Shown here: positions 7,666 to 35,713 of the stretch, piece by piece
Layout of the letters: each line of letters opens with the position of its first letter
Position numbering within the stretch: position 1 is the stretch's first letter
DNA from: Anaerobacillus sp. CMMVII
GTDB taxonomy: Bacteria > Bacillota > Bacilli > Bacillales > Anaerobacillaceae
Assembly: GCF_025377685.1 (NCBI RefSeq)
Contig: NZ_JACEHK010000015.1
Coordinates: 372,001-436,000 of the forward strand
DNA: 64,000 bases
Reading direction: 5' to 3'
Position numbers and translations under genes: made by a program
Notes under the pieces: generated by a model
The model's database searches: none
The model's input: only the letters and a program-made list of their open reading frames with translations
Told to the model about the DNA's origin: nothing

Positions 7666-8769
7666 TTGGAACCATTACCAATAAAATGGCTTATTCGATT
7701 TGTAAGTCTCTTAGTGTTATTTTTGTGCGGCTACGTTTTTTTACTACTTGCTCCAATCTGGGAACCAATTTTAACCGTCACTATTAGAGTTGCAACCCCG
7801 TTTATCATTGCTGGGGTTATCACTTACTTATTGCATCCAATTGTCGAGCAATTGAAGAATATGGGGCTACCAAGACCAATTTCGATCCTCTTAATTTACG
7901 TTGTATTCATGTTTGTATTTGCTTCTTTGTTAATGAAGGGAACTCCTTACATTATTGAAGAACTTAAGGATTTAGTTGAAAATATACCTAATTTCATCAA
8001 CATCTATCGTGATTTGGTTAGTGATTTCTATAAGCAGACGTCTATGATGCCTGACGGGTTTCGAGTGAAAGCAGAAGGATGGTTAACGAATATAGAAGGA
8101 GTAGCGGCTGATGGTGTTGTCGGTACTGTTGAAACTCTAGGTGGATTAGTAGATTATTTATTAATGATTATTATTATTCCCTTCCTGGTTTTCTATCTTT
8201 TAAAAGATTTTAATTTACTCGAGAAAACAGCTTGGTATTTAACGCCTCGTAAATGGAGAGGTTCAGGGAGAGAGTTGTTAAGGAATATTAATGTGTCATT
8301 AGGTAACTACATTAGGGGGCAATTGATAGTCTGTTTAGCAGTAGCAATTATCGCTTCATTGGGACTTTGGCTAATCGGGATGCCTTATGCAGTAATTCTG
8401 GGTATTTTCATTGGTATCACTAATATCATTCCTTATTTTGGCCCTATTATAGGTGCAGTCCCAGTAGCAATTATTGCGTTTACGGAATCGTTTCAACTAG
8501 TTTTACTAGGATTAATGGTTAATTTCGGTCTACAGATGATCGAGGGAAACATTTTATCCCCTTTAATTGTAGGGAAAAGCTTACATATGCACCCAATTTT
8601 AATTATGTTAGCTTTAATTGTTGGTGGAGAAGTTGGAGGGATCATTGGACTTATTTTGGCTGTACCAATTTTGGCGGTCATTAAAGTTTTATTATCCATG
8701 TTCGTGAGGCTCTGCAAGAAAAACACGAAAAAGCAGCAAAAATGTAACTCGGAAAAAATGGGATCATAA
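7666..8769 (+). CDS. yrrI: AI-2E family transporter (YrrI, former UPF0118)
   Basis: A roughly 367-residue polytopic membrane protein. Membrane segments include LLVLFLCGYVFLLLAPIW near the start, FIIAGVITYLLHPIVE, and a C-terminal cluster with the family signature FGPIIGAVPVAIIAF and EGNILSPLIVGKSLHMHP. The family includes exporters of autoinducer-2 and Na+/H+ antiporters, so the substrate is open. The TTG at 7666 follows GGGGTGA; an in-frame TTG at 7642 has no ribosome-binding site. B. subtilis yrrI lies at the same place before alaS. Confidence 0.85.
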   Translation: MEPLPIKWLIRFVSLLVLFLCGYVFLLLAPIWEPILTVTIRVATPFIIAGVITYLLHPIVEQLKNMGLPRPISILLIYVVFMFVFASLLMKGTPYIIEELKDLVENIPNFINIYRDLVSDFYKQTSMMPDGFRVKAEGWLTNIEGVAADGVVGTVETLGGLVDYLLMIIIIPFLVFYLLKDFNLLEKTAWYLTPRKWRGSGRELLRNINVSLGNYIRGQLIVCLAVAIIASLGLWLIGMPYAVILGIFIGITNIIPYFGPIIGAVPVAIIAFTESFQLVLLGLMVNFGLQMIEGNILSPLIVGKSLHMHPILIMLALIVGGEVGGIIGLILAVPILAVIKVLLSMFVRLCKKNTKKQQKCNSEKMGS

Positions 8770-9239: not shown

Positions 9240-11876
9240 ATGAAGCGATTAACTTCAGTTGAAGTTAGACAAATGTTTTTAGATTTTTTTAAAGAAAAGG
9301 GACATGCTATTGAGCCCAGTGCATCACTTGTACCTCATGAAGACCCGTCATTACTTTGGATTAATAGTGGCGTGGCAACCTTGAAGAAGTATTTTGATGG
9401 ACGAGTTATTCCTGAAAACCCAAGGATTACGAATGCTCAAAAGTCGATAAGGACAAATGATATTGAGAATGTCGGAAAAACGGCACGACATCATACGTTT
9501 TTTGAAATGCTTGGTAACTTTTCAATTGGGGATTACTTTAAAAAAGAGTCGATTGAGTGGGCTTGGGAATTCCTAACAAGTGACGAATGGATTGGTTTTG
9601 ATCCAAATAAATTATCTGTAACTATTCATCCTGAAGATCATGAAGCCTTTGAGATTTGGAGTAAAGAGATTGGAATTCCTGAAGACAGAATTATTCGTTT
9701 AGAAGGAAACTTTTGGGATATTGGTGAGGGTCCAAGTGGTCCAAATACGGAAATTTTTTACGATCGTGGTGAAGGGTATGGTAATGATGAAAATGATCCT
9801 GAACTTTTTCCTGGTGGAGAGAATGAGCGATATTTAGAGGTTTGGAATCTTGTGTTCTCACAATTTAATCATAATCCAGATGGAACTTATACACCACTTC
9901 CAAAGAAAAACATTGATACTGGAATGGGACTTGAAAGAATGGTTTCGGTTGTACAGGACGTGCCAACAAACTTTGATACAGACCTTTTTGTTCCAATTAT
10001 TAAAGCGACTGAACAAATATCAGGAGTTTCGTATGGGGAAACAAAGGAAACCGATGTATCATTTAAAGTGATCGCTGACCATGTTCGTACAGTAAGTTTC
10101 GCTATTGCTGATGGGGCTCTTCCATCAAACGAAGGTAGAGGTTATGTGCTCAGACGTTTACTCCGTAGAGCAGTGCGTTATGCAAAGTTAATTAACATTG
10201 ATCGCCCGTTTATGTATGAGCTAGTCCCTGTTGTTGGCGAAATCATGGTTGATTTCTATCCAGAAGTAAAAGATAAAACTGAATTCGTTCAAAAAGTCAT
10301 TAAAAATGAAGAAGAACGATTCCACGAAACGTTAAATGAAGGATTAACAATTCTAGCAAAGGTAATTGAACAAGCCAAAAGTGCAAATGAACAAGTGATT
10401 TCTGGTGAGAATGTCTTTAGATTATATGACACTTACGGTTTCCCAGTAGATTTAACTGAAGAATATGTAGAGGAAGCTGGACTTACAATCGATCGAACAG
10501 GCTTTGAGGTAGAGATGGGGAAGCAAAGAGAAAGAGCTCGTGCAGCTCGTCAAACGGATAACTCAATGCAAACTCAAGACAGTGTTTTAGGAGAACTTAA
10601 GGTTGAAAGTGAGTTTGTCGGTTATGAAAATCTTTCCGCAGATTCAGTAATTGAAGTAATCATTAGAGATAAAGAGCTTGTGAAAGAAGCTAGCGCTGGT
10701 GATGTAATTAAAGTGATTGTTGATAAAACACCATTTTATGCTGAAAGTGGTGGGCAGGTTGCTGATAAAGGGTCTATGAGAGCAAGTGGAGTTTACCTTA
10801 AGGTAGAGGACGTTCAAAAAGCTCCGAATGGGCAAAATTTGCACTCTGTTCGTGTAATTGAGGGGTCAATCTCAGTTGGAACGAAGGTAATTTCAGTCGT
10901 GGAAGAAACTGAACGTATTGGTACTGTCAAAAACCATACAGCTACACATATTTTGCATAGGGCCTTAAAAGATACTCTTGGTGAACACGTAAATCAGGCA
11001 GGTTCTTTAGTTTCAGAGAATAGACTTCGTTTTGATTTTTCTCATTTTGGACAGGTAACTCCTGAAGAATTAGCAAAAGTTGAGTCGATCGTTAATCAAA
11101 AAATTTGGGATGCTATTACAGTTGAAATCTCTAACAAAAATATCGAAGAAGCTAAAGCTATGGGTGCTATGGCTTTATTCGGTGAAAAATACGGTGAAGT
11201 TGTTCGTGTAGTTCAAGTTGGAGAGTATAGTTTAGAGCTTTGTGGTGGCTGTCACGTGAAGAATACAGCAGAAATTGGTCTATTTAAAATTGTTTCTGAA
11301 TCAGGAATTGGTGCTGGGATCCGCCGTATCGAAGCTGTGACAGGAAAAGGTGCATATGAGCACATGAATTCGCAAGTCGATCTACTAAAAGAGGCAGCGA
11401 CTTTAGTAAAAGCTAACTTAAAAGACGTACCAGATAAAGTAGAACAGCTTCAACTACAACTTCGTAAGTTACAACGAGAAAATGAATCATTAGCTGCAAA
11501 GCTAGGAAATATGGAAGCAGGAGGGTTGATCGAAAACGTTAATAAAATAAATGACGTATCGGTTATTGCTCAAAAGGTAAATGTAGCTGACATGGATAGC
11601 ATTCGCAGTTTAGTCGATACATTAAAAAATAAATTAGGTTCAGGTATTGTTGTATTAGGTGCTGTCAATAATGGGAAGGTAAATATCGTTGCAGGTGTAA
11701 CGAATGATTTAATCAAAAAAGGGTATCATGCTGGAAATATTGTTAAAGAAGTTGCCACACGTTGCGGCGGCGGCGGTGGCGGTCGACCTGATATGGCCCA
11801 AGCAGGTGGGAAAAATCCAGATCAGCTTCAAGAAGCTCTAGATTTTGTTCCAGAATTTCTGAAAACAATTTCCTAA
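9240..11876 (+). CDS. alaS: alanyl-tRNA synthetase
   Basis: An 878-residue class II synthetase of normal length. Catalytic core motifs include [18 protein letters not shown] near residue 80 and [15 protein letters not shown]. The editing domain has its zinc/hydrolysis residues in [11 protein letters not shown] (about 565) and CGGCHV (about 667). The C-terminal oligomerisation (C-Ala) domain ends with the glycine-rich [15 protein letters not shown]. It charges tRNA-Ala and clears mischarged Ser/Gly. Regulated by the T-box leader upstream. Start ATG follows AGGGAGG. Confidence 0.97.
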
Positions 11877-11975
11877 ATAATTCATGTTAGTGTACAATAT
11901 GGATAACAGGTTACATGTCCATTCATTTAGTGGAATGTAAATCAATTGTGCATTGTAGGAAAAGAGGTGTTTGTG

Positions 11976-12242
11976 ATGAGTTCAATGGATAACACAATGA
12001 AATTTAATTTCCAAGATGACTCAGAAGATACGAATGTTCAAGAAGTACTTCTAACTGTATACGAGGCATTGGAAGAAAAGGGCTACAATCCAATTAACCA
12101 AATTGTAGGTTATTTATTGTCAGGAGACCCTGCGTACATTCCTAGACACAAAGATGCAAGATCATTAATTCGTAAGCTTGAGAGAGATGAATTAATCGAA
12201 GAATTAGTGAAATCGTATTTATCACAGCACCAAGAGGAGTAA
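11976..12242 (+). CDS. yrzL: IreB family regulatory protein (YrzL)
   Basis: An 88-residue protein of the IreB/UPF0297 family: [19 protein letters not shown], then [20 protein letters not shown] and [17 protein letters not shown]. In enterococci IreB is a phospho-target of the PASTA kinase IreK; in Bacillus its role is less clear. The ATG at 11976 gives the family-typical length and follows AGAGGTG; the upstream in-frame TTG at 11946 would add an unrelated ten residues. It is followed within 2 bases by ruvX, the conserved alaS-yrzL-ruvX order. Confidence 0.9.
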
Positions 12243-12243
12243 T

Positions 12244-12660
12244 ATGAGAACATTAGGATTAGATGTAGGTACGAAAACGATTGGTGTAGCAGCTAGTGAT
12301 GAATTAGGTTGGACAGCTCAAGGTGTTGAAACAATTAGGCGCGATAGTGAAAATCCAGATAATGATTGGGAAAAGTTAAGCAAACTGATTAAAGAACTTG
12401 ATATTGTTAAAGTAGTAGTCGGCTTACCCAAAAACATGAATGGAACGATTGGCCCAAGTGGGGAAGCATGTCAGCAATTTGCTGAAGAGGTTAAACAACG
12501 CTTTCAATTACCAGTCATTCTATGGGATGAACGTTTAACAACTGTTGCAGCTGAAAAAATGTTGATTGCTGCTGATATGAGCCGTAAAAAGCGAAAGAAG
12601 GTTATCGATAAGATGGCCGCAGTAATGATATTACAAGGGTATTTAGACTCAACATCATAA
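12244..12660 (+). CDS. ruvX: Holliday junction resolvase-like / pre-16S rRNA nuclease RuvX (YqgF)
   Basis: A 138-residue RNase H-fold protein. The first acidic motif is in [13 protein letters not shown] (Asp near residue 6), [12 protein letters not shown] is the central motif, and [15 protein letters not shown] carries the second. The family processes the 16S rRNA 5' end in E. coli and was also proposed as a Holliday junction resolvase. It overlaps nothing but sits one base after yrzL, so translation is probably coupled. Confidence 0.92.
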
Positions 12661-15129: not shown

Positions 15130-15783
15130 GTGGTCTCAGAGCAAGTAAATGCTTATATTAGTTCTTTAATTAAAGCAAGAAACCCATTACTAACAGAAAT
15201 GGAACAATATGCACGGGAGCATGAAGTCCCGATTATGGATATTGTGAGTATCGAAGCAATGTTACAAATCCTTTCATTTGCTGGAACGAAGAAGGTATTA
15301 GAAGTTGGCACTGCTATCGGTTATTCCGCGATGCGAGTTGCAGAGAGACTTCCTCATTGTAAAATCGTATCAATTGAAAGAGACGAAGATAGGTATAATA
15401 AAGCACGAGACTATATCAAGAGAGCAAATCTTGAAAATCGTGTTACCCTTATCTTTGGTGATGCCCTCGAAGTAGGGAGTGAAATTGAACAGTTTGGTAT
15501 GTTCGACTGTTTATTTATAGATGCTGCAAAAGGTCAATATAAACGTTTTTTTGAATTATATAGTCCTCTTGTCCAACCCAATGGTCTTGTCGTCAGTGAT
15601 AATGTGCTTTATAAAGGTATTGTTGCCCATGAAGGCAAAATCGCAAAAGGTATTCGGACAATGGTAACTAATTTAAAGAGTTACAATGAAATGTTAATGG
15701 CAAATGAGCAATTTGAAACAACCTTTTATCCAATTGGGGATGGAATGGCTATTAGCAAAAAAATAGGTGGTGTAGAATTATGA
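15130..15783 (+). CDS. trmR: tRNA 5-hydroxyuridine methyltransferase TrmR (YrrM)
   Basis: A 217-residue class I O-methyltransferase. SAM-binding motif EVGTAIGYSAMRVA is near residues 58-71 and the metal/catalytic region CLFIDAAKGQYK near 135. In B. subtilis YrrM (TrmR) methylates 5-hydroxyuridine at tRNA position 34 to 5-methoxyuridine, using the hydroxyuridine made by the two U32 proteins encoded next to it. Start is GTG after AAGGAGG. Its stop overlaps the next start (ATGA), so the three genes form one operon. Confidence 0.9.
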   Translation: MVSEQVNAYISSLIKARNPLLTEMEQYAREHEVPIMDIVSIEAMLQILSFAGTKKVLEVGTAIGYSAMRVAERLPHCKIVSIERDEDRYNKARDYIKRANLENRVTLIFGDALEVGSEIEQFGMFDCLFIDAAKGQYKRFFELYSPLVQPNGLVVSDNVLYKGIVAHEGKIAKGIRTMVTNLKSYNEMLMANEQFETTFYPIGDGMAISKKIGGVEL

Positions 15784-16709
15784 ACAAACCTGAAATACTT
15801 GTCACACCGACAAAGGTAGAAGACATTGACAGATTAATCAAAGCAGGAGCTACAGCCTTTATCATCGGTGAAGAGAAATTTGGTCTACGTCTTGCAGGTG
15901 AATTTACAAGAGATGATATTAAGGAAGCTGTTAAGATTGCACATAGTTCTGGTGCAAAGATCTATGTTGCAATGAATGCGCTGTTCCATAATGATAAATT
16001 GGAATTATTGCCGGATTATATTTCATTTTTAGCGGAAAATGGTGTAGATGCGATTGTTTTTGGAGATCCTGCGGTATTAATGGTTGCTAGAGAAGTTGCT
16101 CCTCAAATGAAGCTTCATTGGAATACAGAGACAACTGCAACTAATTATTACACGGCTAATTATTGGGGACGAAAAGGTGCTAAGCGTGCAGTAATGGCTA
16201 GGGAAATTAATATGGAGGCAATCGTCGAAACAAAGGAAAATGCGGAAGTGGAAATTGAGGTTCAGGTCCATGGGATGACTTGTATGTTCCAATCAAAGCG
16301 AACGTTAATTGGAAACTACATGGAGTTTCAAGGGAAGGACTTAGTGGTTGAGGGACGTAGTAAAGACCGTACATTGGTTTTACATGATCCGGAGCGTGAG
16401 GCGAAGTACCCTATCTTTGAAGATGAAAATGGGACACATATTATGAGTCCAAATGACATTTGTATCATTGACGAGTTAGAAGATATGCTTGATGCTGGAG
16501 TAGATTCATTTAAGATTGATGGAATTTTAAAATCCGTTGATTATTTAGAAAAAGTAACAGCATTGTATAAAGAGGCAATCGAGCTTTACTTAGAGGATCC
16601 AGATGCATATCAGGATAAGAAATTTCATTTTTTACAAGAAGCAGAAAAAGTACAACCAAGAAATCGAAAACTAGATACTGGATTTTTCTTTAAAGAAACT
16701 GTTTATTAA
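15780..16709 (+). CDS. trhP1: U32 family tRNA hydroxylation protein TrhP1 (YrrN)
   Basis: A 309-residue peptidase U32-family protein. The TIM-barrel features include GATAFIIGEEKFGLRL, VAMNALFHN and VQVHGMTCMFQSKRTLIGNY, which carries one cysteine of the family motif. YrrN and YrrO together are required for prephenate-dependent tRNA U34 hydroxylation in B. subtilis; despite the name a protease activity is not expected. Overlaps trmR by four bases and is 15 bases before trhP2. Confidence 0.88.
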   Translation: MNKPEILVTPTKVEDIDRLIKAGATAFIIGEEKFGLRLAGEFTRDDIKEAVKIAHSSGAKIYVAMNALFHNDKLELLPDYISFLAENGVDAIVFGDPAVLMVAREVAPQMKLHWNTETTATNYYTANYWGRKGAKRAVMAREINMEAIVETKENAEVEIEVQVHGMTCMFQSKRTLIGNYMEFQGKDLVVEGRSKDRTLVLHDPEREAKYPIFEDENGTHIMSPNDICIIDELEDMLDAGVDSFKIDGILKSVDYLEKVTALYKEAIELYLEDPDAYQDKKFHFLQEAEKVQPRNRKLDTGFFFKETVY

Positions 16710-16724
16710 GGAGGGGTGTTTACC

Positions 16725-18000
16725 ATGGAAAAAATATCAACTGTCACTCCAGAAGGAAAACGTGTCATTACTAAAAAGCCTGAGTTATTAGCCCCTGCTG
16801 GTAGTTTAGAAAAATTAAAAATAGCTGTTCACTACGGTGCCGATGCAGTATTCATTGGTGGTCAAGAATTTGGACTTCGTTCGAATGCTGATAACTTTTC
16901 GATTGAAGAGATGCGTGAAGGTGTAGAGTTTGCGAATAAGTATGGTGCAAAAATTTATGTGACTACAAATATCTTTGCTCATAACGAGAATATGGATGGA
17001 CTAGAGGAATATTTGCAAGATCTTCAGGATGTAGGGGTTGCTGGGATTATAGTCGCTGACCCGTTAATTATTGAAACATGTAAGCGGGTGGCACCTAAAG
17101 TTGAAGTACACTTAAGTACACAACAATCACTTACCAATTGGCAGGCAATTAAGTTCTGGAAAGAAGAAGGACTTCACCGTGTCGTTTTAGCTCGCGAAGT
17201 AGGAATAGAAGAAATGTTAGAAATGAAACGAAACGTAGATATCGAGATAGAAACGTTTATTCATGGTGCTATGTGTATATCTTATTCAGGAAGATGCGTT
17301 CTAAGTAACCATATGACTGCACGCGACTCAAATAGAGGTGGATGCTGTCAGTCATGTCGTTGGGATTATGATCTTACGAACAAAATGAACAAGACGAATT
17401 CAATGAAAGTCCTTTATTTTCAGAACAGGATCTACCATTTTCAATGAGTCCTAAAGACCTTAACTTGCTAGCTGGAATTCCAAAGGTAATTGAAGCTGGG
17501 ATTGACAGTTTAAAAATTGAAGGTAGAATGAAATCGATCCATTATGTAGCTACGGTTACATCTGTGTACAGAAAAGTAATTGATGCTTATTGTGCCGATC
17601 CCGATAATTTCACCTTAGATCCTAAGTGGGTTGAAGAATTGGACAAATGTGCAAACCGTGATACAGCTTCTTCGTTCTTTGAAAACGAACCGACATATAA
17701 GGAGCAATTGTTTGGAAGAGTTGATGGCAAAAAAACACCTTATGATTTTGCCGGTCTTGTCCTAGAGTATGATCAAGAAACAAAAATTGTTACTTTACAA
17801 CAACGAAATTACTTTAAACCAGGTGACAAAGTTGAGTTCTTCGGTCCAGAAATTGATAACTTTACAGTCACAGTTGGAACGATCTGGGATGCGAAAACTG
17901 GTGAAGAAATGGATGCAGCTAGACATCCACTACAAATTGTAAAATTTCAAGTGGATAAACCACTTTTCCCTAATAATATGATGCGTAAAGGAGTACTATA

Positions 18001-18001
<1 letters not shown>
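16725..18001 (+). CDS. trhP2: U32 family tRNA hydroxylation protein TrhP2 (YrrO), frameshifted
   Basis: The first part (to 17447) has [21 protein letters not shown], the metal-ligand region [13 protein letters not shown] and [11 protein letters not shown], all typical of the larger U32 protein. Frame is lost in the A run at 17382-17385: one extra A restores [15 protein letters not shown] and joins it to the second half ([20 protein letters not shown], and the C-terminal beta domain). Repaired length is about 425 residues, normal for YrrO. ATG 16725 follows AAGGAGGGGTG. Its TAA overlaps the udk ATG. The break is likely a sequencing error. Confidence 0.85.
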
Positions 18002-18635
<634 letters not shown>

Positions 18636-18697
18636 TAGCATAGAGAATAGGGTTTTTAATTTTTACCTTTTCAGCTAATTATTTCATAAGTTGTAAT

Positions 18698-18742
18698 GAA
18701 AAGCTTGTGCATTTCACGTCACAGTGAAATGCTAAGCTTTTC
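18698..18742 (+). terminator. hairpin terminator after udk
   Basis: GAAAAGCTT-GT-GCATTTCAC pairs with GTGAAATGC-TA-AGCTTTTC around a six-base loop; the 3' arm itself is T-rich. Confidence 0.75.
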
Positions 18743-18879
18743 TGTATACATATAGTTGGCAGATTTATCATTAATTTTTAGCTCTTCATTATTGAAAACC
18801 TTACCAAAATGAATGAAAGTACAATATTTACCGAATAGTAACGTAAATTGTAGACAACTTTAAGGAGTGAATGAACAAA

Positions 18880-19356
18880 ATGAGTGAAGACAAAAAGTTT
18901 TATATGACATTGGATGGAAAAGCAAAATTAGAGCAAGAGTTAGAATTTTTGAAAAGTGAAAAAAGAAAAGAAGTTGTAGAGCGCATCAAAATTGCACGTT
19001 CTTTTGGGGATCTTTCTGAGAACTCCGAGTACGATTCAGCAAAAGAAGAGCAAGCATTTGTCGAAGGGCGTATTGTGACTATTGAAAAAATGATTCGTAA
19101 TGCAGTAATTATTAAAGAGGATGAAACGGATTCTTCTGTTGTCTCCTTAGGAAAGTCAGTAAAATTTAAGGAACTTCCTGATGGTGACGAAGAAGTTTAT
19201 ACAATTGTAGGAAGCGCAGAAAGCGATCCATATGAAGGGAAAATTTCTAATGACTCACCTATGGCACAAAGTCTACTTGGAAAAACCGTTGGAGATAAAG
19301 TAACTGTCCAAACACCTGGTGGCGAAATGAAAGTAGAAATTTTAGAAATTAAATAA
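18880..19356 (+). CDS. greA: transcription elongation factor GreA
   Basis: About 158 residues. N-terminal coiled coil [20 protein letters not shown] and the acidic tip [16 protein letters not shown] carry the residues that stimulate RNA polymerase cleavage of backtracked transcripts; the C-terminal globular domain has [14 protein letters not shown] and [10 protein letters not shown]. Two starts are possible, ATG 18871 (3 bases after AAGGAG) and ATG 18880 (12 bases); the second gives the more usual N-terminus, so it is used here with some doubt. Confidence 0.93.
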
Positions 19357-29303: not shown

Positions 29304-30674
29304 TTAATGTGGTAAAAAATCAATTAAAGCGGTCGCGATTGAAAAGTAAATAATTAATCCTAATAAATCATTAATAGTTGTAATGAAGGGCCCGGAGGCT
29401 ACTGCTGGATCAATCTTAAACTTATTAATAATTAATGGGACAATGGCACCAACCATTGTAGAAATACTTAATGTTACAAATAGGGATAAACCAACAATAC
29501 CTGCTAACCAAAATCCTCCTTGGGGATATAGCAACGGAATTAAAATAAGTAGGGTGATGGCGCAAATTAAACCTAACATAATACCAGTTCCAAATTCCCG
29601 GCGTAGCATTTTACTAATCGTTGATTTATCGACGGCTCCTAAAGCTAAGCTTCGAACAACAACAGCTAAGGCTTGGGTTCCAGTATTACCCGCTGACCCC
29701 ATAATCAAAGGAATAAAGACTGAGAGTAAAATGACTTCCTCAAGTGTGTCTTCAAACTGACCGATAACCCCGGCAGTTATTAGTCCAAGAAACATCAACA
29801 TAATAATCCAAGGTGAACGTTTTTTAGCAGCTGTAAAAGAGGTTACGTTCGTGTCTAATGATCCTCTTACAGCAAACATTTCACCAAAGTCTTCTTCTGT
29901 TTCTTCTTCAACAACATCCATAATATCATCTACCGTAATAATCCCGACAAGTTTGCCTTGGGCTGTTACGGGTATCGCTAAAAAGTCGTACTTTTTGATA
30001 ATCCTAGCTACTTCTTCTTGGTCTGTATGTGTTTCTACAGATTTTACTCTTGATAACATGACTTCTTCAATTTTTTCTTCTAAAGGAGAGATAATTAAGT
30101 CTCTTAAGGAAACAACACCGACGAGTTTCAGTTGTTGATCGATAACATAAAGGTAGTAAATGGTTTCTGCTTCAGGCGCTTCAGTACGCAATCTCTTCAT
30201 TACCTCGGCGACAGTTTCCATGCACGACACTGAAATGAACTCAGTTGTCATAATTGCCCCTGCAGTTTGGTCCTCATATTTTAATAAATGGATAACCTCT
30301 TGAGCCTCTTCTGTTTCCATCATTCCTAGATAAAGCTCTTTTGTTATTTCAGGTAATTCACCTAAAAAGTCAGCGATGTCGTCATAAGACATATTGTTAA
30401 TAACATCTATCGCATAATTTTGCTGAAGTTCAGCAATATATTGCTTTTGCTCCTCAGGCTCTAATCCTTGAAAAATTTCAGCGAATTCCTCAGGAGATAG
30501 GAATTTATATATAGTATGGCGCTGTTTTTTCGTAATTTTATTGAATAACTCAATTTGGTCTGTTGGGTGTAATTCAAAAAATAATTCTCTGAAATCTTTA
30601 ATGTTTTGATCGTTTAGCGTTTCAATTAATTGTCTAGTATAGCCTTCACGATTTTCTTGGTCTAATCTTACCAT
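29304..30674 (-). CDS. mgtE: magnesium transporter MgtE
   Basis: A 456-residue Mg2+ channel. The N-terminal superhelical domain (DIADFLGELPEITKELY) is followed by two CBS domains (about 130-255; DQTAGAIMTTEFISVS, VGIITVDDIMDVVEEE) that sense Mg2+, and a five-helix membrane domain with SAGNTGTQALAVVVRSLALG lining the pore. Mg2+ bound to CBS closes the channel. Expression is controlled by the M-box leader upstream. RBS AAGGAGGTAATT precedes the ATG. Confidence 0.95.
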   Translation of the reverse strand: MVRLDQENREGYTRQLIETLNDQNIKDFRELFFELHPTDQIELFNKITKKQRHTIYKFLSPEEFAEIFQGLEPEEQKQYIAELQQNYAIDVINNMSYDDIADFLGELPEITKELYLGMMETEEAQEVIHLLKYEDQTAGAIMTTEFISVSCMETVAEVMKRLRTEAPEAETIYYLYVIDQQLKLVGVVSLRDLIISPLEEKIEEVMLSRVKSVETHTDQEEVARIIKKYDFLAIPVTAQGKLVGIITVDDIMDVVEEETEEDFGEMFAVRGSLDTNVTSFTAAKKRSPWIIMLMFLGLITAGVIGQFEDTLEEVILLSVFIPLIMGSAGNTGTQALAVVVRSLALGAVDKSTISKMLRREFGTGIMLGLICAITLLILIPLLYPQGGFWLAGIVGLSLFVTLSISTMVGAIVPLIINKFKIDPAVASGPFITTINDLLGLIIYFSIATALIDFLPH

Positions 30675-30898: not shown

Positions 30899-31057
30899 CC
30901 TTCTTTCGTAGAGCTTTAGCACTGTGCGGCATAGGAATACATCCAGCTACATTAAAAACCACCTTAAGTCGATAGTTTCTGTTGACCCATTGGCGTCTTT
31001 GGACATTTTTGGGCAGCAGCATATCTCCAGCACAGGAGCCTCACCTAACGAAGGTAT
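30899..31057 (-). promoter_or_regulatory. M-box (ykoK) magnesium riboswitch of mgtE
   Basis: The minus strand contains the well-conserved M-box blocks in order: GTTAGGTGAGGCTCCTGT, GAGATATGCTGCTGCCC, AAAATGTCCAAAGACGCCAA, TGGGTCAACAGAAA, TTAAGGTGGTTTTTAATG, AGCTGGATG and CAGTGCTAAAGCTCTACG. Mg2+ binding favours the downstream terminator. Open reading frames overlapping this stretch on both strands are not genes. Confidence 0.95.
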
Positions 31058-31156
31058 TCATTTGTCTTGTTTAGGTTATCGAACAAAAACTAGACTGTCA
31101 ACCTAAAACTTAAAGTTCGAAATAAAGGAACTTTTCAAAAAATGTTCAAAAACTTC

Positions 31157-31206
31157 TTGAAAATAAGGGTACATAAAGCATATAATGATAGTGAAAATTA
31201 TTCTCA
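31157..31206 (+). promoter_or_regulatory. sigma-A promoter with Fur box
   Basis: TTGAAA (31157-31162), 18-base spacer, TATAAT (31181-31186). TGAAAATTATTCTCA at 31192-31206 matches the Fur 7-1-7 consensus TGATAATNATTATCA at 12 of 14 defined positions and covers the expected transcription start. Confidence 0.7.
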
Positions 31207-31226
31207 ATCAGGAGAGTGAGAGCGTT

Positions 31227-31388
31227 ATGGTGTATGGACTTATTTTATTAACTATTGTTGTTTATTTTCTAATTATTATCCGTATTTTTTATGGAATTAA
31301 CGACGTTAGGACGGTTTCTTTCGTTACAAAATTAAAAGGTGTTTTTAAAACAAAGGATCTTGAGACAATAAATACTCATGCAAAGTAG
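31227..31388 (+). CDS. small single-span membrane protein under Fur-box promoter
   Basis: A 53-residue protein: membrane segment YGLILLTIVVYFLIIIRIF, then a basic soluble tail (RTVSFVTKLKGVFKTKDLE). The ATG at 31227 follows AGGAGAGTG; the longer frame from 31185 starts within the promoter. I do not recognise the family. The Fur box suggests a role in iron limitation, and the next gene is an IscA/HesB-like protein, but both links are inference. A terminator overlaps its stop codon. Confidence 0.65.
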   Translation: MVYGLILLTIVVYFLIIIRIFYGINDVRTVSFVTKLKGVFKTKDLETINTHAK

Positions 31389-31410
31389 GTAAACAACTTT
31401 ACCTGCTTTT
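31387..31410 (+). terminator. terminator overlapping the stop codon of the small membrane protein gene
   Basis: AGGTAAA / TTTACCT around CAAC, followed by GCTTTTTG. Confidence 0.8.
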
Positions 31411-31538
31411 TGTATTTCTTGAAGTATATTTTGCTAAAAGAATTTACGTTTACAGGTCTTCTTCCTTGTGAATAATAAATATTATTGGTACGATAATTAA
31501 GCATGATAATTTATACTTTTAGGGAAATATTCTTGTTA

Positions 31539-31559
31539 CTAAGCAAAGCTTAGTTTTTT
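31539..31559 (+). terminator. small hairpin with T run before the HesB-like gene
   Basis: CTAAGC-AAA-GCTTAG followed by TTTTTT. It lies 35 bases before the HesB-like start, so it could attenuate that gene or be a remnant terminator. Confidence 0.45.
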
Positions 31560-31593
31560 AGAATACTTCATGAAAGATTTTTGAGGTGAAAAA

Positions 31594-31874
31594 ATGAAAA
31601 TTACAGAGGAAGCAAAAGCGTTATTCAAGAAGTACTTGAACAAAACAACGCAAAAGGAATTAAAGTCATTTTTGCAGGAATGGGCTGAGGTGGCCCAAAA
31701 TTAGGATTGTCTCTGGAAGAGGCAACAGACCAGGATATCGTTGAAACAATTAACGGTGTACAAGTAGCATTTGAAAAAAGCATTAAAGACCAAACTGAGG
31801 GGTTAACCCTGGATTTCCAAGAAACTCCACAAGGTTCTGGCCTTGTTATGGTTGGAATTAACGAATGTTGTTAA
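31594..31874 (+). CDS. HesB/IscA-like protein, predicted selenoprotein (in-frame TGA), frameshifted
   Basis: Start MKITEEAKAL after GAGGTG. One missing base near 31623 must be restored (TTAATT for TTATT); then the frame reads IQEVLEQNNAKGIKVIFAG, MG, TGA at 31686-31688, GGPKLGLSLEEATDQD, and ends VMVGINECC at 31872-31874. Repaired length is 93 residues with the TGA as codon 32. The product matches the HesB-like family, whose members carry Cys or selenocysteine in GMG(C/U)GGP. A SECIS-like hairpin lies 25 bases after the TGA. Probable role: Fe-S or other metal/redox handling. The TGA could also be a base-call error for Cys (TGC/TGT). Confidence 0.75.
31686..31725 (+). promoter_or_regulatory. 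candidate bacterial SECIS element
   Basis: After TGA (31686-31688), TTGTCTC (31707-31713) pairs with GAGGCAA (31719-31725), seven pairs including one T-G, around the loop TGGAA. The loop starts 25 bases after the TGA and has G at its second and third positions, as expected of bacterial SECIS hairpins bound by SelB. Confidence 0.65.
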
Positions 31875-31880
31875 AATCGC

Positions 31881-31910
31881 GGGACTAACCTATTACTTAG
31901 GTTAGTCCCT
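31881..31910 (+). terminator. terminator after the HesB-like gene
   Basis: GGGACTAACCT / AGGTTAGTCCC, eleven perfect pairs, loop ATTACTT, short T-rich tail. Confidence 0.8.
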
Positions 31911-32043
31911 TCCTACCTGATTAGGTATTTTTTATTAATTCGAGGAAATATTGTGTTATAATTAATATATAACAGATCGAGAGTGCGTCTAAAAGATAAG
32001 GATCTTTTGTTGTATAACAATTTATACAGGAAGGGTTGTGCTC

Positions 32044-32209
32044 ATGGATTATAGTGATTTTTGAGTAGTAAGGATATTGAAAAGGTAAAGCACTTGCAGA
32101 GAAGCTAAAGACAACATCTTGTTTTGATGAAAGAAAAAGGTTGGTTACGAAAAAAACATTAGTTATTGAAAAAGCTAGGGTTAAAAGGGAAAAAAACTTA
32201 CCGCAATAA
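32044..32209 (+). CDS. small hypothetical protein, doubly frameshifted
   Basis: Follows AGGAAGGG. Adding one T in the run 32058-32062 and one G near 32090 gives a continuous frame MDYSDFLSSKDIEKVKAL then KLKTTSCFDERKRLVTKKT and VKREKNLPQ with a TAA at 32207-32209, about 56 residues, basic, without membrane segment. Family not recognised. Two repairs are needed, so the call is weak; it may instead be non-coding sequence or decay. Confidence 0.35.
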
Positions 32210-32322
32210 CATATTTTTAAAGGTCCCTTCATGTATAACGTCTCTCACAAAGGAAAGCTTAATAGAGATGGTTATAAGGGGATTTTTTTGTATGAGAATT
32301 AGACATGTAGGAGGAAATGTAA

Positions 32323-33028
32323 ATGAGTGTACATATAGGTGCTAAAGAAAATGAAATAGCTGAGTCAATTTTATTACCAGGGGATCCGTTACGAGCAAAA
32401 TTTATAGCTGAAAATTTTTAGATAACCCACAATGCTATAACGAAGTTCGTGGAATGCTAGGGTTTACAGGTACATATAAAGGAAAGCGAGTTTCTGTCCA
32501 AGGAACTGGTATGGGAATTCCATCAATATCGATTTATGCACAAGAATTAATGCAAAGCTATGGTGTCAAAAATTTAATTCGAGTTGGGACATGCGGTGCT
32601 ATTCAGGAAGATGTGAAAGTGAGGGACTTGATCATTGCAATGAGTGCTTCTACTGACTCGTCTGTGAATAGAGTTAGGTTTAAGGGAATTGACTATGCTC
32701 CAACAGCAAATTTTGATTTATTAAAAACGGCTTATGATATTGCCATAAGTCGCAATAAAAAGTAAGCGTCGGAAGTGTATTTACGAGCGATACATTTTAC
32801 AATGAAGATAAAGCAGCAGTTGAAAATTGGGCGAAGCATGGTATTTTAGCGTTGGAAATGGAAACAACGGCTCTTTACACGTTAGCTGCTAAGTTTGGAG
32901 CTAGAGCTCTTTCGATTTTAACTGTGAGTGACCACGTGTTAACTGGAGAAGAAACAACTTCTGAAGAACGTCAAAAAACATTTGGCGAGATGGTTGAGAT
33001 CGCCTTAGATACGGCCATTCAATTTTAG
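32323..33028 (+). CDS. deoD: purine-nucleoside phosphorylase DeoD, doubly frameshifted
   Basis: Reads [20 protein letters not shown] and [13 protein letters not shown], then breaks at the T run 32415-32419; with one more T it continues [18 protein letters not shown] to YDIAISRN, breaks again in the A run at 32757-32761, and then reads [35 protein letters not shown] and [16 protein letters not shown] to the TAG. Repaired length is about 235 residues, normal for the hexameric DeoD that phosphorolyses inosine, guanosine and adenosine. RBS AGGAGGAAATG. Probably intact in the organism. Confidence 0.87.
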
Positions 33029-34571: not shown

Positions 34572-35713
34572 ATGAATTTTGAATTAACAAAAGAACAACA
34601 AATGATCAAAGAAATGGTTAGGGACTTTGCGAAAAACGAAATTGCTCCTTATGCGACCGAGTTAGACAAAACTGAACGCTTCCCAATTGAAACCTTTAGA
34701 AAAATGGGGGAGTTAGGACTGATGGGAATCCCTTTTTCTGAGGAGTATGGCGGTTCCGGTGGGGATACCATCTCCTACATTTTAGCTGTTGAGGAAATTG
34801 GGAAAGCTTGCGGAAGTACTGGCTTAAGTTATGCTGCAACAACTTCATTAGGTGCAAGTCCGCTATATTATTTTGGAACTGAAGAGCAAAAAAGAGAGCA
34901 TCTTGTCCCGCTAGCTTCAGGAAAATCATTAGGGGCATTTGGTTTAACTGAACCTAATGCAGGCTCAGATGCTGGTGGAACACAAACAAAGGCTATTGTT
35001 GATGGAGATGATTTTGTTATCAACGGCGAGAAGTGCTGGATCACTAATGCCTCCTTTGCTAGAACAGTGATTGTGACAGCGGTAACGGGAAAAGATGAGC
35101 GAGGAAAAAATATCATCTCAGCAATCATCGTACCGACTGATACGAAGGGACTTACAATTAATACACCGTATGAAAAAATGGGGGTTCGAGCTTCCAATAC
35201 GACGGAATTAGTTTTAGAAGATGTTCGTGTACCTAGATCAAATTTATTAGGCGATCCACAAAAGGTTTCGGACAATTTCTTTATACATTAGATGGCGGAA
35301 GGATTTCGATTGCTAGTCTTGCAGTTGGAATTGCTCAAGCGGCATTTGAAGCAGCTTTAAAATATTCTCAAGAAAGAAAGCAGTTTGGGAAGGCTATCTC
35401 TAATTTCCAAGCCATTCAATTTAAATTAGCTGATATGGCGATGGAAATTGAATTAGCTAGAAACATGGTACTAAAAGCGGCATGGTTAAAAGATCAAGAT
35501 AAACCATTTAAGAAAGAAGCTGCATATGCGAAGTTATTTGCTTCTGAAATGGCTACACGAGTTTGTAATCAGGCCATTCAAATTCATGGTGGCTATGGCT
35601 ATATGCGTGAATATCAAGTAGAACGCTATTTGAGAGATGCAAAATTAATGGAGATAGGTGAAGGAACTTCAGAAGTTCAAAGAATGGTGATTGCTCGTCA
35701 ATTACTTTCATAA
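34572..35713 (+). CDS. yngJ: acyl-CoA dehydrogenase (isovaleryl-CoA type, YngJ), frameshifted
   Basis: Flavoprotein that desaturates short branched acyl-Co[16 protein letters not shown] (residues about 118-132) and WITNASFA are FAD motifs; the C-terminal part has [20 protein letters not shown] and the catalytic-site region. The frame breaks in the A run 35260-35263: one more A gives [19 protein letters not shown] and joins the halves to about 380 residues, the family norm. First gene of a leucine-breakdown operon in the same order as B. subtilis yngJIHGFE. Start ATG follows AAGGGGG. Confidence 0.88.

Follow-up and report, generated by a model that had tools for sequence, protein, structure and literature searches.

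Gene Structure and In-Frame UGA

In the window, that is, the 64,000 nucleotides of Anaerobacillus sp. CMMVII analysed here, a short HesB-like gene contains a TGA triplet in the frame that covers most of its length (Table 1). This frame reads ...IKVIFAGMG-U-GGPKLGLSLEEA...GINECC (U denotes selenocysteine, Sec), and the predicted product has about 93 residues. All the features on which a preliminary description of the locus had dwelt, namely the GMG-TGA-GGPKLGL product, the positions of a hairpin downstream of the TGA and the -GINECC end, are found in this segment, and the observation as a whole is confirmed. Among 20 aligned homologues, the last Cys of the C-terminal pair is invariant and the preceding one is nearly invariant (at least 90%). 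The inverted repeat that follows the stop codon is absent from the consensus-scan listing. Promoter-like sites between 31350 and 32000 number five, compared with 2.4 expected, and were not used as evidence.

Table 1. Features of the HesB-like locus (window coordinates).
Feature	Position	Strand	Details and basis
Likely ribosome binding site	31583..31588	+	GAGGTG, before the ATG; read from the sequence
Predicted HesB/IscA-like selenoprotein gene	31594..31874	+	ATG 31594, TAA 31872-31874; frame broken in the assembly; homologues, family models, fold
Frame break	31615..31626	+	Match passes from the ATG frame to the TGA frame; comparison with intact relatives
In-frame TGA, predicted Sec	31686..31688	+	UxGP motif as U-G-G-P; kept in 6/6 other genus genomes
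Predicted bacterial SECIS hairpin	31707..31725	+	Stem 31707-31713/31719-31725, loop 31714-31718 TGGAA; covariation, codon controls
C-terminal Cys-Cys pair of the product	31866..31871	+	Alignment of 20 homologues
Inverted repeat, possible terminator	31881..31909	+	GGGACTAACC ... GGTTAGTCCC, 3' of the stop codon; read from the sequence

Protein Family and Predicted Fold

The best family matches of the product are TIGR01911 (HesB_rel_seleno; score 41.5, cut-off 66.35) and NF038090 (IscA_HesB_Se; 47, cut-off 85), and 20 of 20 aligned homologues match both models at E 0.001 or better. The HesB-like identity proposed earlier stands in so far as these are the best matches, but the curated cut-offs of both models are missed, as they also are by the intact relative L026 (49.2 and 55, respectively). 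Given these scores, we file the product as a HesB-like selenoprotein in the broad sense, outside both models. With Pfam PF01521, the product scores 17.4 (cut-off 26.3), and a search of its own genome with this model missed the gene and returned two other loci. The product shares with HesB-like selenoproteins the UxGP motif listed for them in PMC13188914, here in the form U-G-G-P, and a UGA followed by a predicted SECIS element. Unlike members of TIGR01911 and NF038090, it falls below their cut-offs together with the intact member from the genus, suggesting a divergent branch.

Profile comparison places the product nearest to the solved structures HI1723, AQ_1857 and Escherichia coli IscA (yfhF). 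A structure predicted for the residues encoded from 31623 onward, based on their alignment to 16 Cys homologues (pLDDT 83.3, pTM 0.69), matches the IscA structures 1x0g, 1r94 and 1s98 (for the best chains, E is 1.8e-4 to 1.5e-3 and query TM 0.65–0.74; two other 1x0g chains, 0.52–0.58) and, more weakly, SufA 2d2a (E 0.028). In its predicted fold, the product accordingly resembles the A-type Fe-S carriers IscA, SufA and ErpA, whose equivalog models give weak matches, far below cut-off. The ligand set of these carriers is Cys ... Cys-Gly-Cys. In contrast, the product has Sec in place of the first Cys, which the alignment pairs with the GGGCSG Cys in the SufA/ErpA-like relative L053, and a C-terminal Cys-Cys instead of Cys-Gly-Cys (...SCGCG in L053). 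The Cys forms from the order and from named Alicyclobacillus, Oceanobacillus and Virgibacillus genomes have Cys, often as Cys-Cys-Gly-Pro, where the window product has Sec. By function, Sec and the C-terminal Cys-Cys pair probably bind iron or an Fe-S cluster, or act in redox chemistry.

The Frame Break and the Neighborhood

The ATG and the TGA lie in different frames, and the assembly holds no intact ORF for this gene. Compared with intact L026 (93 residues), the ATG frame matches the first eight residues and the TGA frame matches from about residue 8, so that the switch occurs around codons 8–11; the preliminary description had placed the break near 31623. The six copies of the gene from the genus each run in a single frame; programmed frameshifting as the cause of the break was rejected for this reason.

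Two nearby genes are also broken. In the relative G003, a 19-kb region surrounding the gene contains 15 ORFs, and 13 of them could be placed on the window between 24.3 and 42.3 kb. Among these, deoD is in three pieces in three frames (32323–32418, 32394–32762 and 32759–33025) and the gene for a 380-residue protein is in two (34572–35282 and 35261–35710); the other eleven are in one piece each. The deoD gene is unbroken in G001, G003, G004 and G005 (no copy turned up in the G002 stretch analysed, and the contig of G006 stops short of the gene), and the gene for the 380-residue protein is unbroken in G001, G002, G003 and G005. All the breaks, including that in the HesB-like gene, cluster between 31.6 and 35.3 kb. 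Given that the six genus copies are unbroken and that two more genes are broken within 4 kb, a sequencing or assembly error is the most likely cause, albeit not a proven one, and recent loss or decay in this strain is less likely. If the strain instead carried a genuine pseudogene, the break would be biological and the UGA and the SECIS hairpin would be relics of a selenoprotein that the relatives still make, an explanation that accords with the presence of the break in the assembly and with the disruption of two more genes relative to G003. We consider it unlikely because the residues after the break are 76–91% identical to the six genus copies (61-genome search), the hairpin is intact, and deoD, broken twice close by yet whole in four relatives, points to sequence quality. 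The earlier suggestion that the gene is whole in the cell is therefore likely, with the unbroken genus copies and the broken nearby genes in its favor, but it is not proven.

The neighborhood, in particular mgtE, a 558-residue protein gene and deoD, is partly common to members of the genus; none of the three was found beside the HesB-like gene in G051 and G047. An M-box magnesium riboswitch (RF00380; 30894–31059, reverse strand, 146.4 bits, E 3.2e-33) stands in front of mgtE (29304–30674, reverse strand).

Geometry and Stability of the Hairpin

The arms of the predicted hairpin, TTGTCTC and GAGGCAA, form seven pairs, one of them G-U, with 18 bases between the TGA and the stem and 25 between the TGA and the loop. 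In the window copy, U31714 and A31718 could also pair, leaving a GGA triloop. The bacterial SECIS (bSECIS) model, as laid out in PMC13188914, has a loop of 3–9 nt, a stem of 4–16 bp, a G among the first two loop nucleotides, a distance of 16–37 nt from the UGA and a free energy of -7.5 kcal/mol or lower (PMC13188914). As had been claimed, the hairpin falls within the usual bacterial range, with a stem of 7 (or 8), a loop of 5 (or 3), a spacing of 25 (or 26) and G at loop position 2 (or 1). Its energy is -7.2 kcal/mol for the bare stem-loop, slightly short of the value in the model, and -7.8 for a 24-base slice.

By a simple scan of both strands, the hairpin exceeds chance: of the 2481 TGA triplets in the window, 22, counting that of the HesB-like gene, precede a fitting hairpin of equal or greater stability, and 28 of 5000 synonymous recodings attain its stability. 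Against the hairpin stand those 22 triplets and the fact that, folded alone, the 50-base stretch is no stabler than its shuffles (z 0.71; equalled or surpassed by 154 of 200). No Rfam SECIS match appears in 31000–32500 at E up to 10 or in the whole window at gathering scores. Given that the single-sequence fold is not significant, the case for the hairpin is put on covariation between species and on codon controls.

Covariation and Codon Controls

The homologues come from a search with the window product against 61 genomes (its own and 60 relatives), which yielded 26 matches with one internal TGA from 22 genomes, the own genome contributing two. All 26 form the UGA set, with 48 bases cut from the TGA. 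The Cys set comprises 30 loci (26 distinct) of 31 candidates, L045 having been dropped for want of a motif match; seven are from the 61-genome search and 23 from a scan of named genomes, the pattern of which had Cys for Sec, so that only Cys forms could be returned and these loci serve as Cys controls only, not for frequencies. Generic SufA/IscA-type matches from the 61-genome search and the second Cys copies of G049, G015 and G012 were dropped before the Cys count.

In the 26 UGA homologues, taken in register, 94.0% of the cells of the seven stem pairs form standard pairs, and two-sided changes occur in four of the seven pairs (22 cells). None of 500 shuffles matches the paired percentage, the two-sided-change cells or the covariation score, and two and three of 500, respectively, match two other measures, although these counts overstate independence given that the homologues are related by descent. 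When the partner arm is slid by 1–3 columns, pairing falls to 31–58%, and RNAalifold, unaided, recovers the same seven pairs along with two beside the UGA. Imperfect stems do occur: in L033 a single inner pair is broken, and seven of the 26 copies lack the outermost pair. The 30 Cys homologues are 38.5% paired, below their own shuffle mean, and show no hairpin in register.

Furthermore, the Leu codon that closes the 5' arm and opens the loop is CTG in 26 of 26 UGA forms compared with 2 of the 30 Cys forms; across six window genes, CTG accounts for 6 of 256 Leu codons. The residues at Sec+8 and Sec+12 of the UGA forms are Ala/Pro (11), Ser/Ala (8), Val/Pro (2) and five other combinations found once each, whereas Ser/Pro, present in 21 of 30 Cys forms, occurs in none of the 26. 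The proposed SECIS hairpin is borne out by the covariation in the UGA homologues, and, judged from the compared sequences, we take the predicted hairpin to be a real SECIS element. We would give even odds to the further proposal that part of the protein sequence is dictated by the recoding hairpin and not solely by protein function: the two bases of a stem pair change jointly (U-G/G-C, C-G/U-A), Sec+8 and Sec+12 change as pairs, and the Leu at Sec+9 would be fixed to a codon seldom used in the genes of the window. This proposal includes the view that the branch is a distinct, divergent group of HesB selenoproteins with two copies in the genome.

Conservation of the UGA and Distribution of Selenocysteine

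Beyond the genus (Table 1), TGA occupies the Sec position in 15 further genomes of the order. The six genus copies are 72–86% identical to the window product (alignment-based). The UGA position is Cys in the 30 Cys homologues compared; those from the order are at most 49% identical to the window product, and those from the named Alicyclobacillus, Oceanobacillus and Virgibacillus genomes at most 54% over residues 8–92. The frame breaks in the same stretch might raise the suspicion that a Cys codon was missequenced as UGA, but the same TGA in six of six other genomes of the genus and in the 15 further genomes makes such an error exceedingly improbable. A second, more distant UGA group is represented by L051, L083 and L084 from three other genomes of the order, with the motif MGIG-U-GGP and the same CTGGA loop.

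The selA gene scores over the cut-off in 35 of the 61 genomes searched (28 of the 54 that lie outside the genus), which does not fit the initial impression that Sec insertion is unusual in spore-forming Bacillaceae: in the order, Sec use is not out of the ordinary. All 22 genomes with a UGA form have selA, whereas of the 39 without one, 13 have it and 26 lack it (Fisher p 7e-8); with the genus excluded, the proportions are 15 of 15 and 13 of 39 (Fisher p 5e-6), both p values being guides only, which overstate independence as the sampled genomes share ancestry. In these 13 genomes with selA, no UGA form of the HesB-like gene was found.

Selenocysteine Machinery of the Genome

The search of the rest of the genome for selA, selB, selD and tRNA-Sec, which the preliminary description had proposed as a check, recovered all four, so that its refuting case of a genome lacking selB/tRNA-Sec does not apply. 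In the assembly (G000; 4,874,683 bases, 21 contigs, completeness 100), they share contig C6, where they span about 11 kb: tRNA-Sec at 8259–8351 (58.6 bits, gathering cut-off 47; ARAGORN also calls tRNA-SeC, anticodon tca), selB at 10489–12360 (349, cut-off 242), selD at 15730–16659 (401, cut-off 125) and selA at 17813–19192 (556, cut-off 268). An ORF overlapping the end of selB in this locus (L024:7379-8407, forward strand) is one that we take to be glycosyltransferase-like. Among 14 control genomes, selA is over the cut-off in 1, selB in 2, selD in 2 and tRNA-Sec in 5; given that single markers are passed by 1–5 controls, the weight rests on all four together.

At least six UGA-bearing selenoprotein candidates are present in this genome: two HesB-like genes, selD, which itself carries one in-frame TGA (in GGUGCK), and three formate-dehydrogenase-like genes. 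The second HesB-like gene with an in-frame TGA, L078 (G000:C9:78251-78448, reverse strand), has the hairpin TGGTTC-TGGAT-GAACCA. In the formate-dehydrogenase-like genes (L093, L094 and L095, on C10, C2 and C1, respectively), the TGA is at the R-x-U-H place; one exceeds the Fdh-alpha model cut-off and two are partial matches below it, and the gene on C10 also looks split near its C-terminal end. A small protein encoded at L001:1501-1803 (G000:C15:560177-560479) matches NF041239, "CC/Se motif family (seleno)protein", at 24.5 (cut-off 40) and has Cys, with no TGA inside the match.

Proposed Decoding

By analogy with the known mechanism, from which the decoding step is inferred while its parts are seen in the sequence, SelA would make Sec-tRNA-Sec with selenophosphate from SelD, SelB would carry it to the ribosome, and the hairpin 25 bases past the UGA would recruit SelB, such that the UGA would be decoded as Sec and not as a stop. 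Sec would then stand where the A-type Fe-S carrier fold has its conserved first Cys.

A mechanical ORF list would have the UGA as a plain stop, leaving a short 5' product and an unrelated downstream ORF (31707–31874, TTG start). However, the 26 UGA forms are homologous on both sides of the UGA, the 30 Cys forms have Cys at the corresponding position, only the UGA forms retain the hairpin, and the Sec machinery is present, which renders a plain stop very improbable. Our preferred reading, to which we assign a probability of about 0.95, is that the segment is a gene for a selenoprotein of the HesB/IscA fold with the UGA read as Sec, the frame break being most likely an error of sequencing or assembly. 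The selenoprotein interpretation offered originally is, as a whole, supported.

Relation to Known Selenoproteins and Implications

HesB-like selenoproteins are a known kind: 11 were counted in 2006 in the survey of PMC1794560, which lists three selenoproteins of three families for Firmicutes/Bacillales, and 90 in 86 organisms are given for 2016 in PMC5029168. Literature searches returned no paper joining Bacillaceae to selenocysteine and selenoproteome, and none joining Anaerobacillus to selenocysteine. The present case is a sound but ordinary example that leaves the general picture of selenoproteins unchanged; what it adds is a divergent branch whose covariation is clear, the presence of two copies within a single genome and the other UGA-bearing candidates found alongside them. 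Automatic annotation would probably split or drop the gene, the UGA and the frame break being two separate points of failure. The 26 homologues make up a clean comparative SECIS data set, a single genome displays the whole Sec apparatus together with its at least six candidates, and Sec forms of HesB-like proteins, present in 22 of the 61 sampled genomes, are spread across the order.
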